DNA from: Bhargavaea sp. CC-171006
GTDB lineage: Bacteria > Bacillota > Bacilli > Bacillales_A > Planococcaceae
Length of the DNA: 64,000 bases
Direction of reading: 5' to 3'
Assembly: GCF_009761675.1 (NCBI RefSeq)
Contig: NZ_QUZH01000006.1
Location: forward strand, 62,001-126,000
Shown here: positions 20,119-53,151 of the stretch, piece after piece
Numbering within the stretch: the first letter of the stretch is position 1
How the letters are laid out: the number at the start of each line of letters is the position of its first letter
Position numbers and translations under genes: made by a program
The notes under the pieces: generated by a model
What the model was told of the DNA's origin: nothing
What the model saw: only the letters and a program-made list of their open reading frames with translations
Database searches by the model: none

Positions 20119-20473
20119 GGGGACGTTTTGGATTCGACAGGGATGGTCTGAGCTCCGGTTGCGCGTCGGAGGGTCGGCTCCGTATCAACGACATTTAACA
20201 ACAACTGGCAAAACTAACAACAACCTCGCTTTCGCAGCGTAAGCTGCTGAAACGGTCCTTCGGTTCCATCGCCCATGTGGCATCGCGGGACTCACTTATC
20301 AGTGGGATACGACGTCTGTCTGCCGCCTGAGGCTGACGTAAGAGATTTACAGGATAGCGCGCAGGACGCCTGCTGACCGGCAAAATGCCGCGCGAACTTC
20401 AATAGATCAGATACACGCGTAGAAGCCGGAGTATTGGAGTCTCTGGACGCGGGTTCGAATCCCGCCGTCTCCA
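20119..20473 (+). ncRNA. ssrA: Transfer-messenger RNA (tmRNA)
   Basis: The RNA frees stalled ribosomes and tags the nascent chain for ClpP-dependent proteolysis. The 5' end GGGGACG pairs with CGTCTCC before an encoded CCA at 20471-20473. Conserved tmRNA features GGATTCGACAGGG (5') and GGGTTCGAATCCC (3') are present. The tag reading frame is read from GGC at 20207 to the TAA at 20240-20242 and gives GKTNNNLAFAA, plus the alanine carried by tmRNA. The total is 355 nt. Confidence 0.97.
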
Positions 20474-20500
20474 TAATTATGGTGACATCATAACGATTCA

Positions 20501-30291: not shown

Positions 30292-31467
30292 ATGCGTGAA
30301 GCAGTGATTGTGGCCGGCGCGAGGACGCCGGTCGGAAAAGCAAAGAAAGGATCCCTTGCAACGGTCCGCCCGGACGACTTTGCCGCTCTTACGGTGAAAG
30401 AGACGCTCAGGCGAGCCGGGGGCTACGACGGACCGATCGATGACTTCATCGTCGGGTGCGCCATGCCGGAAGCGGAACAGGGCATGAACGTCGCCCGCCT
30501 GATCGGCGGACTTGCCGGACTGCCGGATACAGTGCCGGCAGTGACGGTCAACCGGTTCTGCTCGTCCGGTCTCCAGACAATCGCAACCGGTGCGCAACAA
30601 ATCATGCTCGGCCATGCGGATACCATACTCGCGGGCGGTACCGAATCGATGAGCATGGTGCCGATGATGGGCAACACGATCCGCCCGAACGCAACCCTTG
30701 CGGAAACCGCGCCTGAATATTACATGGGCATGGGCCATACGGCGGAGCAGGTCGCAATGAAATACGGAGTGAGCCGTGAGGACCAGGATGCATTCGCGGT
30801 CCGCTCCCATGAGCGTGCCGCCGCCGCCATCCGGGAAGGCAAATTCAAGGATGAGATCGTGCCGGTCGAAGTGATCCGCCGCACGGTCGGACCGGATGGC
30901 AAGCTGAAGGAAGGAACCTTCACCTTCGATATGGATGAAGGCGTACGCGAAGGCACCAACATGGAAACCCTCGCGAAGCTGCGTCCGGCGTTCAACGTGA
31001 AAGGGACGGTCACTGCGGGGAACGCTTCCCAGACATCGGACGGAGCGGGTACGGTCCTGATCATGGACCGTGAAAAGGCGGAGGCGGAAGGGCTGAAGCC
31101 GATCGCCAAGTTCCGCTCGTTCGCAGTCGGCGGTGTTCCGCCGGAAGTGATGGGCATCGGCCCGATCGAGGCCGTACCGAAAGCGCTGAAGCTTTCCGGC
31201 CTGTCGGTCGAAGACATCAACCTGTGGGAGCTTAATGAAGCTTTCGCCTCACAATCGATCCAGGTCATCCGCCATCTTGGCCTCGATGAAGACAAAGTCA
31301 ACGTCAACGGCGGCGCCATCGCGCTCGGTCACCCGCTTGGCGCGACAGGCACAATCCTGACGCTGAAGCTCATGAACGAGCTCAAGCGCCGCAACGAACA
31401 GTTCGGCGTCGTCACCATGTGCATCGGCGGAGGAATGGGAGCCGCCGGCGTATTCGAAATGTTGTAA
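30292..31467 (+). CDS. fadA: Acetyl-CoA C-acyltransferase (3-ketoacyl-CoA thiolase)
   Basis: The thiolase cleaves 3-ketoacyl-CoA to acetyl-CoA and a shortened acyl-CoA. The 391 residues show nucleophile Cys90 (NRFCSSGLQT), the His of NGGAIALGHPLGATG, and the second Cys in TMCIGGGMGAAG. A good GAGGAGG site precedes the ATG. Three hundred bases separate it from fadE, a long gap within an operon, and these hold a paired structured repeat. Confidence 0.96.
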   Translation: MREAVIVAGARTPVGKAKKGSLATVRPDDFAALTVKETLRRAGGYDGPIDDFIVGCAMPEAEQGMNVARLIGGLAGLPDTVPAVTVNRFCSSGLQTIATGAQQIMLGHADTILAGGTESMSMVPMMGNTIRPNATLAETAPEYYMGMGHTAEQVAMKYGVSREDQDAFAVRSHERAAAAIREGKFKDEIVPVEVIRRTVGPDGKLKEGTFTFDMDEGVREGTNMETLAKLRPAFNVKGTVTAGNASQTSDGAGTVLIMDREKAEAEGLKPIAKFRSFAVGGVPPEVMGIGPIEAVPKALKLSGLSVEDINLWELNEAFASQSIQVIRHLGLDEDKVNVNGGAIALGHPLGATGTILTLKLMNELKRRNEQFGVVTMCIGGGMGAAGVFEML

Positions 31468-31482
31468 GTAAGTGCGAAGGGT

Positions 31483-31580
31483 GGCTGCCCAGGCCCGCCA
31501 GGCATAAGGGGACATGCGCAGCGGATCCTGATCCGCGGAGTGTTGCCACTTATGACCCCGAGGGCCTGCCGCCCGCAGCC
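31483..31580 (+). repeat. Structured element, copy A
   Basis: This is a roughly 98-nt hairpin-like module. Four nested stems can be drawn: GGCTGC/GCAGCC (31483-31488 with 31575-31580), AGGCCC/GGGCCT (31491-31496 with 31562-31567), CATAAG/CTTATG (31503-31508 with 31549-31554) and GCGGAT/ATCCGC (31521-31526 with 31531-31536) closing a CCTG loop. There is no T run after it. It lies between fadA and fadE. The second copy follows exactly 120 bp later. Confidence 0.8.
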
Positions 31581-31602
31581 GGATAGCGTAAAAGCGGAGA
31601 GC

Positions 31603-31706
31603 GGTTGGTCATGGGCGACAGGCATAAGACGACCTGCGCAGTGAGGCCTGCCTCATGGAGCGGGACGGCTTGTGACCCGGGCCCGTACTGCCTGGAGCTG
31701 GCCACC
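31603..31706 (+). repeat. Structured element, copy B
   Basis: The 60-bp core (31621-31680) aligns without gaps to 31501-31560 of copy A at 40 of 60 positions. The same stems form with changed bases: GTGAGG/CCTCAT (31641-31646 with 31651-31656) around the identical CCTG loop, CATAAG/CTTGTG (31623-31628 with 31669-31674), ATGGGC/GCCCGT (31611-31616 with 31681-31686), and an outer GGT-GGTC/GGCC-ACC. Because the bases change while pairing is kept, structure appears selected. Confidence 0.8.
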
Positions 31707-31767
31707 GGAAATATGATCAGCAACCTGATTGATAACAAAACGAAAAAAGAACAGGGAGGAAACGAAT

Positions 31768-33555
31768 ATGGCTGAAACGCAAGACAAGGCACTCGTCAAA
31801 GGCGGGGCATTCCTCATCGAGGACATCGATGCGGACCAGGTGTTCACGCCGGAGGATTTCACGGAAGAGCATAAGATGATCGCAAAGACGACGGAGGAGT
31901 ATGTCAAGAACGAAGTCATCCCGGTCATCGACAAACTGGAAAACCATGAGTTCGAAAACTCCGTGCGGCTTCTGAAATCCGCTGGGGAACTCGGCCTTCT
32001 CGGAGCGGACATTCCGGAGGAATACGACGGCTTCGGACTTGATAAAATCTCGTCTGCGCTCATCACCGAAAAGATGTCCGTCGCCGGCGGGTTCTCCATT
32101 ACACACGGGGCCCACGTCGGCATCGGCACGCTTCCGATTGTCCTCTTCGGCAACGAAGAGCAGAAGCAGAAATACCTGCCAGCTTCGGTTACGGCAGAAA
32201 AAATCTTCGCTTATGCACTCACTGAGCCGGGCTCCGGTTCGGACGCGCTCGGCGCGCGTACAACTGCGAAACTCAATGAGGCGGGCACACACTATATCCT
32301 CAACGGTGAAAAACAGTGGATCACAAACTCCGGCTTTGCAGATGTCTTTGTCGTTTATGCCAAGATTGACGGTGAACATTTCACGGCATTCATCGTCGAG
32401 AAGGATTATCCGGGCGTTTCCGTCGGTGCCGAAGAAAAGAAGATGGGGATCAAGTCTTCTTCGACACGTACTCTTATCCTCCAGGATGCGGAAGTGCCGG
32501 TCGAAAACCTTCTCGGTGAAAAGGGACGCGGCCATGCGATCGCATTCAACATCCTGAACATCGGACGCTACAAACTTGGTGTGGGCGGTGTCGGCGGTTC
32601 CAAGCGGGCACTTGAACTGGCGATCAAATACACGAATGAGCGCCAGCAGTTCAAGCGCAGCATCGCTTCCTTCAACCTGACAAAGGAAAAAATTGCAACG
32701 CTTGCATCCGAGCTGTATGCGACGGAAAGTCTGATCTATCGCACGGTCGGCTACTTTGATGACCGCATGGGCCAGATGAGCGAGGAAGACCAGAAAGACG
32801 GCCGCAAGATCGCCCAGGCGATCGCGGAATATGCCATCGAATGCTCCATCAACAAAGTCGTCGGTTCAGAGACACTTGATCATGTCGTCGACGAAGCGGT
32901 CCAGCTGCACGGCGGATACGGCTACATGCAGGAGTATGAAGTCGAGCGCGCGTACAGGGACTCCCGCATCAACCGCATCTTCGAGGGTACGAACGAGATC
33001 AACCGCCTTCTCGTACCCGGTACGTTCCTTAAGAAAGCCCTGAAAGGGGAGCTTCCGCTTCTCCAGAAGGCCCAGTCGCTTCAGGAAGAGCTGCTCATGA
33101 TGATGCCGGAAGAACCGGGCGATGAAGCACTTGCGCAGGAGAAAATCCTGGTGAAGAACGCCAAGAAAATCGGCCTTCTCACTGCGGGCATGGCAGCACA
33201 GCGATTCGGCACGAAGCTTGAAGACGAGCAGGAAGTCCTTGTCAACATCGCCAACATCGCCAATGACATCTTCGCGATGGAATCCGCTTTGCTCCGCTCT
33301 GAAAAGGCGATCCGCCGCGCTGGAGAGGAGAAGTCTCGCCAGAAGGTTCTCTATACGGAAATCTTCTGCCAGGAAGCGATGCAGCGCATCGAACAGGAAG
33401 CGAAAGAAGTGCTCGTCGCGTCTGTCGAGGGAGACAACCAGCGCATGATGCTGTCTGCTCTCCGCAAACTCACCCGCTACACGCCGAAGAACCTGATTCC
33501 TCTGAAGCGCGAAGCGGCAGACAAGCTGAACGAAGCCCTGAAATACACAGTCTGA
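31768..33555 (+). CDS. fadE: Acyl-CoA dehydrogenase
   Basis: This FAD enzyme makes the trans-2-enoyl-CoA in the first step of beta-oxidation. The 595 residues resemble B. subtilis FadE (YusJ). They contain ALTEPGSGSDALGARTTA, KQWITNSGFADVFVVYAK, and the catalytic-base region INRIFEGTNEINR, then a C-terminal extension of about 150 residues. The ATG at 31768 follows AGGGAGGA. It closes the fad operon before a terminator. Confidence 0.95.
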   Translation: MAETQDKALVKGGAFLIEDIDADQVFTPEDFTEEHKMIAKTTEEYVKNEVIPVIDKLENHEFENSVRLLKSAGELGLLGADIPEEYDGFGLDKISSALITEKMSVAGGFSITHGAHVGIGTLPIVLFGNEEQKQKYLPASVTAEKIFAYALTEPGSGSDALGARTTAKLNEAGTHYILNGEKQWITNSGFADVFVVYAKIDGEHFTAFIVEKDYPGVSVGAEEKKMGIKSSSTRTLILQDAEVPVENLLGEKGRGHAIAFNILNIGRYKLGVGGVGGSKRALELAIKYTNERQQFKRSIASFNLTKEKIATLASELYATESLIYRTVGYFDDRMGQMSEEDQKDGRKIAQAIAEYAIECSINKVVGSETLDHVVDEAVQLHGGYGYMQEYEVERAYRDSRINRIFEGTNEINRLLVPGTFLKKALKGELPLLQKAQSLQEELLMMMPEEPGDEALAQEKILVKNAKKIGLLTAGMAAQRFGTKLEDEQEVLVNIANIANDIFAMESALLRSEKAIRRAGEEKSRQKVLYTEIFCQEAMQRIEQEAKEVLVASVEGDNQRMMLSALRKLTRYTPKNLIPLKREAADKLNEALKYTV

Positions 33556-35318: not shown

Positions 35319-35493
35319 CTCTTATTGAGAGAGGCGGAGGGACGTGCCCGATGAAGCCCGGCAACCGTCACGGAAACGTGAAATGGTGCCAAATCACTCA
35401 AAGCGCAAGCGCTTTGGCAGATGAGAGGAAATGCACCGGTCGGAGACGGATCGGTTGCGCGACCTGTCTGCCTGTAAGCAGATGGGTCTTTTT
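35319..35493 (+). promoter_or_regulatory. SAM-I riboswitch (S-box) with terminator
   Basis: The aptamer at 35319-35427 has the S-box signatures: CTCTTATTGAGAG, GGCGGAGGGACG, GCCCGATGAAGCCCGGCAACC, TGGTGCCAAATC and the closing ATGAGAG. It is followed by an 11-bp terminator stem GACCTGTCTGC/GCAGATGGGTC (35461-35488) with a T run. Bound S-adenosylmethionine is expected to favour the terminator and stop metNPQ transcription. Confidence 0.95.
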
Positions 35494-52886: not shown

Positions 52887-53151
52887 CGATTGGGTAGAGG
52901 CCGCAATCGCTTATGAGTAGCACACGTGAGTTGACAACGATGACCGTGCGTAAAAGGAAGCATTGCCGAAGTGGACCGGAGCAGTCAGTGAAGGTCCGCT
53001 GGGGCCATTCCGAACAGGGATGGCACTGTCATGCGGGAAGATCTGCATGGAGAGCTACAGATCGTACGTTGTAATGAGTTATTTCAACTGACGAACGTAG
53101 TGGACGGCCGGCTTCCCTTTGCGCCAACAGCGCAGGGTGCCGGCTGTTTTT
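52887..53151 (+). promoter_or_regulatory. Lysine riboswitch (L-box) with terminator
   Basis: The aptamer (52887-53064) is closed by CGAT/ATCG and GTAG/CTAC. It shows L-box landmarks in order: GGGTAGAGGCCGC, ATGAGTAGCAC, GCATTGCCGAAG, GGCACTGTCAT, and TGGAGAGCTACAG near the 3' end. A terminator with stem GCCGGC/GCCGGC (53107-53112 with 53139-53144), an inner GC stem and TGTTTTT follows. Lysine binding should stop transcription of the downstream transporter. Confidence 0.92.

Follow-up and report, generated by a model that had tools for sequence, protein, structure and literature searches.

Dispersed repeats of the ERIC, bcr1 and BOX types are non-coding, MITE-like intergenic elements of 100–200 bp that fold into a long hairpin (PMC2267715, PMC3733652). 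A structured RNA of 67 nt with two short hairpins, Bacillaceae-1 (Rfam RF01690), has also been described from Bacillaceae (Weinberg 2010, PMC2864571). The stretch analysed here (the window; 64,000 nucleotides of Bhargavaea sp. CC-171006) carries two structured modules between fadA and fadE, which are very probably two units, in tandem, of a structured non-coding repeat that is mobile and dispersed among Bacillales. This repeat shares with ERIC, bcr1 and BOX its size range of 100–200 bp, intergenic position, lack of coding capacity, hairpin fold and dispersal. Unlike these elements, which are mostly known from other taxa, it forms long exact tandem arrays and inserts beside terminators; for bcr1 and Bhal-1 the comparison is one of descriptions. 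The copies tested for end and target features, from G195 (a genome of the same family but a different genus, g3), also depart from MITEs in having neither terminal inverted repeats nor a target-site duplication.

Other systems offer partial parallels. The repeat is palindromic, intergenic and clustered in tandem, as are REP and BIME sequences, but its unit of 119–126 bp contrasts with the 20–40-bp REP palindrome, and the RAYT transposase is absent from all eight genomes of the genus. Lack of target duplication, lack of terminal inverted repeats and a subterminal palindrome are shared with non-autonomous (PATE-like) IS200/IS605 elements. Integron attC sites fold as single strands into imperfect palindromes whose sequence varies except for a conserved core; the repeat is similar in these traits, but no cassettes lie between its units and attC core motifs were not seen by eye. 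Group IIC introns target intrinsic terminators, next to which they integrate without duplicating the target; in contrast to these, the repeat has neither a GUGYG 5′ end nor intron ends, and several copy-bearing genomes contain no reverse transcriptase. Bacillaceae-1 lies adjacent to or nested in the repeat but is not identical to it, and RF01690 found no match in the window repeat up to E 10.

Rfam searches gave no match for 31450–31760 even at E ≤ 10, and the repeat at seven other loci matched no family either. The open-access papers searched contained neither a matching repeat nor its core strings in a bacterial-repeat context. The family is apparently undescribed, though only provisionally so, because subscription papers and the bcr1 and Bhal-1 sequences lay outside the comparison.

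The array between fadA and fadE

The array lies in a gap of about 300 bp between a fadA-type acetyl-CoA acyltransferase gene (30292–31467, + strand; stop codon TAA at 31465–31467; NCBIfam NF005805, above cut-off) and a FadE acyl-CoA dehydrogenase gene (31768–33555, + strand; ATG at 31768; NCBIfam NF058590, E 6e-296), matches that confirm the gene names given in a preliminary description. A search of the gap revealed neither a promoter nor a terminator on the + strand, where no stem is followed by a T run; the earlier statement that the modules are not terminators thus holds, and the array presumably lies in a shared fadA/fadE mRNA. The window also holds an ordinary SAM riboswitch (35319–35427), a lysine riboswitch (52887–53065) and a tmRNA (20119–20476).

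Two related modules exactly 120 bp apart had been reported, and an offset scan bore this out: the 60-bp cores (31501–31560 and 31621–31680) are identical, ungapped, at 40 of 60 positions, the runner-up offset reaches 25 of 60, and none of 2,000 shuffles of the 301-bp gap attained the observed identity. The modules extend beyond these cores to full units of 120 bp each. Unit A (31469–31588, + strand), aligned with 15 other copies, starts 1 nt past the fadA stop codon, and unit B (31589–31708, + strand), included in the same alignment, follows head to tail; the covariance model R1, built from the seven copies in this genome, matches them at 31479–31578 (102.1 bits) and 31599–31697 (101.0 bits), respectively. 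Each unit consists of a 5′ flank of 9–10 nt (TAAGTGCGAA in A, TAAAAGCGGA in B), a hairpin of about 100 nt and a 3′ flank (GCAGCCGGATA in A, GGAGCTGGCCA in B).

Folding together with comparative alignment places the + strand hairpins at 31479–31574 in A and 31599–31697 in B. In unit A, P1 pairs GGGTGG (31479–31484) with CCGCCC (31569–31574), P2 pairs AGGCCC (31491–31496) with GGGCCT (31562–31567), P3 pairs CATAAG (31503–31508) with CTTATG (31549–31554), and P5 pairs GCGGAT (31521–31526) with ATCCGC (31531–31536) around a CCTG loop. The corresponding arms of unit B are ATGGGC (31611–31616) and GCCCGT (31681–31686) for P2, CATAAG (31623–31628) and CTTGTG (31669–31674) for P3, and GTGAGG (31641–31646) and CCTCAT (31651–31656), again with a CCTG loop, for P5. 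All three arm pairs for which compensatory change had been claimed are therefore present, and pairing is kept in both units. The folding energies of the two hairpins (z −2.5 and −1.6) are weak evidence alone; the comparative data carry the weight.

Distribution and turnover

A BLAST search of 31481–31720 against the same genome revealed three further loci, bringing the total to four loci and seven sense copies. Contigs C2 and C6 each carry two units in tandem, those on C6 following guaA (a gene recognised by eye from its C-terminal end), and C12 carries one. The host genes, read by eye, have no obvious pathway in common. R1 matched all eight genomes of the genus, 6 to 107 times each with antisense duplicates included (107 in G004, the copy-richest). 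Within the family the repeat occurs in 178 of 261 genomes and 13 of 19 genera; in a sample of the phylum it was found in 6 of 398 genomes, all of class Bacilli, and none of the sampled genomes outside Bacilli contained it. Named hosts include Bhargavaea cecembensis, Planococcus and Sporosarcina and, outside the family, Neobacillus, Cytobacillus, Litchfieldia, Mesobacillus and Metabacillus. No phage or plasmid carrier was found for the window copy or for one Neobacillus copy, and 27 viral pattern matches were judged not to be real; the G195 version of the repeat occurs in one Cytobacillus megaplasmid record.

Among the interpretations offered previously, that of a dispersed structured repeat proved correct, as the covariance model recovered further covarying copies in this genome, the genus, the family and other Bacilli; the refuting outcome named with it, a lack of any such copies, is decisively contradicted. 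The accompanying idea that such a repeat landed twice is better replaced by one insertion followed by tandem duplication, because exact tandem arrays with periods of about 119–126 bp are common across species (one has a period of 125 bp). One example, in G004, comprises 11.2 identical copies of 119 bp.

The fadA–fadE site itself is polymorphic among relatives. Its arrangement is A-B in the window genome, B-A plus a remnant in G003, A-A-A′ with a truncated A′ in G002, and B, a remnant of A and a second B with its inner hairpin deleted in G007. G001 has at least one B (the contig ends there), G005 retains a 5′ stub of A only, and in G004 and G006 the site is empty. This variability excludes a genus-conserved role in fad regulation, and a fad-specific regulator or fatty-acid switch was rejected on the same ground. 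The suggestion that the element sets the level of fadE likewise found no support, given the empty sites, the stub, the differing unit orders and the copies standing after guaA and unrelated genes. Any effect of the array on message decay or fadE expression would most likely be incidental and species-specific.

Covariation and strand-specific constraint

The seven copies of the window genome define 33 base pairs, 18 of them with changes on both sides. A wide alignment of 115 hits from 80 Bacillales loci keeps 94.8% of cells paired and shows double compensatory changes in 32 of the 33 pairs; double-change cells number 720, against 203 in shuffles, and none of 500 shuffles was as good by any measure. 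As a control, sliding the partner by 1–3 columns reduced pairing to 25–51%. The top strand of the roughly 120-bp unit thus forms one long hairpin in which arms P1, P2, P4 and P5 are variable and covarying. The core (GACAGGCATAAG / CTTATGACCCCGAG), which includes P3 (CATAAG/CTTATG), the internal loop beside it (GACA/CCGA) and a bulged A, is conserved in sequence, as are the outer flanks of the unit (AAAAGCGGA ... GAGCTRGACA).

Intermediates between compensated states are skewed. G·U outnumbers A·C by 89:15 in the wide set, where three pairs contribute much of the excess (still 38:14 without them), and by 65:9 within the genus after removal of near-duplicates. Two caveats attach to these counts: G-T is the milder mismatch in DNA too, and model-based detection slightly favours G-U. 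The excess indicates that one strand keeps the structure in single-stranded form, because neither strand would be favoured if the constraint acted on double-stranded DNA or if repair were the sole cause; it does not separate RNA from single-stranded DNA, since G-T is also milder in DNA. Compensatory change had been taken as the mark of selected structure. The structure is indeed real, but "selected RNA" is too strong a reading, as part of that signal would also be expected if single-stranded DNA were under selection or if hairpins templated repair.

Genomic context

According to heuristic gene calls, 24 arrays in the genus are sense to both neighbours, 8 antisense, 3 convergent and 2 divergent, and in the sense arrays the hairpin mostly begins 8–15 bp past the upstream stop codon. 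The corresponding numbers in other Bacillales, also from heuristic calls, are 15 sense, 39 antisense, 12 convergent and 3 divergent. Across genomes the repeat often stands next to gene ends and transcription terminators. Because orientation differs between these groups, no single insertion rule covers all copies; alternatively, a retained 3′-UTR function could underlie the placement of sense copies just past stop codons in the genus. In the 23S–5S rRNA spacer, a copy stands directly after the end of the 23S rRNA and before the 5S at seven places in G195, and the same pattern gave single cases in G005 and six other genomes (loci including L110–L113, L149 and L323–L338). Copies at this position could influence rRNA processing.

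A functional 3′-UTR or intercistronic RNA element, retained at some loci, whose hairpin shields the upstream message, undergoes RNase III-type cleavage or binds a protein, would agree with the position of most sense loci in the genus, with the rRNA spacer copies in two genera, with the single-strand constraint seen in the G·U excess and with the conserved core, its internal loop and its bulged A. We nevertheless consider this reading rather unlikely: presence at the fadA–fadE site is not conserved in the genus, copies in other Bacillales are mostly antisense to both neighbours, and the host genes in the window genome lack an obvious common pathway.

Filled and empty insertion sites

Evidence of mobility also comes from G195, which carries 11 near-identical copies dispersed among unrelated flanks. 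Joined G195 flanks were searched in the sister species G221, and nine filled/empty pairs, including a cysK-like locus, were compared base by base. All nine revealed exact empty sites, with no target duplication. The inserted element, about 182 bp, comprises the unit plus an AT-rich tail of about 60 bp, reads GAACAAAAGCGCA...CCTAAGYAA in all nine cases and enters sites of the form W|YRA; it has no terminal inverted repeats, since GAACAAAAG... at one end is not complementary to ...CCTAAGTAA at the other. In eight of the nine, the 3′ end abuts an A-run followed by an opposite-strand terminator stem (its T-tract), always in one orientation; the ninth lies inside an ORF. G221 also has, next to its cysK-like gene (L251, 200–610), a group of short tandem repeats centred on GACAGTT that bears no relation to the hairpin repeat.

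Similar tails often follow the unit in Cytobacillus and Litchfieldia, again ending at an A-run, and A6 runs occur on the 3′ side in 27 of 72 loci, compared with 9–13 of 72 for the other three strand/side combinations. A perfect DnaA-box string, TTATCCACA, was noted in tails from two distant genera (L099–L109 of G195 and L178); as a general tail feature the DnaA box was dropped, since it is not general. The precise insertions were seen in g3, where copies end in a tail that the window copies do not have, so transposition of the latter is inferred from dispersal and from presence or absence among relatives.

Mobilisation

The hairpin is presumably kept because it is required, as RNA or as single-stranded DNA of one strand, for mobilisation by an enzyme acting in trans. 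Searches for Y1 transposases and reverse transcriptases identified no such enzyme, and longer copies inspected for a larger autonomous element (L290 and L291) proved to be hairpins with small nested inserts and no ORF. As resident mobilisers both candidates were rejected, RAYT being absent from the genus and reverse transcriptase from copy-bearing members. The enzyme may have been lost after the copies spread.

A non-autonomous relative of IS200/IS605 (Y1 HUH) or REP elements, with a subterminal hairpin recognised as single-stranded DNA by TnpA or RAYT, would explain the missing target duplication and terminal inverted repeats, the hairpin near one end and the strand-specific structure. This origin is quite improbable, as Y1_Tnp domains are absent from all eight genus genomes, the copy-rich G004 among them. 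Y1 transposase genes do exist in G195 and G178 but are unlinked to repeat copies; neither of the two RAYT-like genes of G195 has one nearby.

Tandem arrays presumably grow and shrink through slippage or unequal recombination. Their fast turnover and the hairpin deletion in G007 show that replication slips on these hairpins, which lends some plausibility to an origin of the compensatory changes in hairpin-templated repair, or in template switching at quasi-palindromes, with no selection involved. Such an origin is very improbable, however, as it predicts equal numbers of G·U and A·C intermediates, at odds with both counts, and the core is conserved in sequence and not in pairing alone. Finally, an RNA retromobilised by a group II (IIC-like) reverse transcriptase, considered because insertion adjoins terminators, accords with the T-tract target, the lack of target duplication and an RNA-compatible constraint, but is scarcely credible given ends without a GUGYG start and no RVT_1 domain in G000, G003, G004, G006, G007 and the single-contig genome G632.

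Association with Bacillaceae-1 RNA

Seven matches to the Bacillaceae-1 signature, mostly from Cytobacillus-like genomes, all lie on the same strand as the repeat and within 300 bp of it. At two loci of G221 the 5′ arm of the hairpin is interrupted by a sequence resembling Bacillaceae-1 (L290, 7121–7560; L291, 920–1230), which in L290 is joined by two copies of a further two-hairpin element of about 68 bp (AATCGAACAGCGCAGGGTTCGATTTGCCGTATTTCTG...GCAGAAATTAAGGCA). This other small structured repeat was also seen at L137 (about 790–895), and Bacillaceae-1 or a close look-alike was observed beside or inside the repeat at L174 (3173–3239), L181 and L153.

Implications

The repeat explains why structured elements recur in hundreds of Bacillales genomes and cautions against taking such hairpins for local regulators, while the filled/empty site pairs provide clean material for hunting the mobilising enzyme. 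More tentatively, it may represent a very widespread mobile hairpin of Bacillales that always enters intrinsic terminators in one orientation and leaves the target unduplicated, is mobilised by a kind of enzyme not yet linked to such repeats and serves as a landing site for other small mobile RNAs, for example Bacillaceae-1. Its association with Bacillaceae-1 suggests that this accepted Rfam RNA is either itself a mobile insertion into, or a module of, a mobile repeat.
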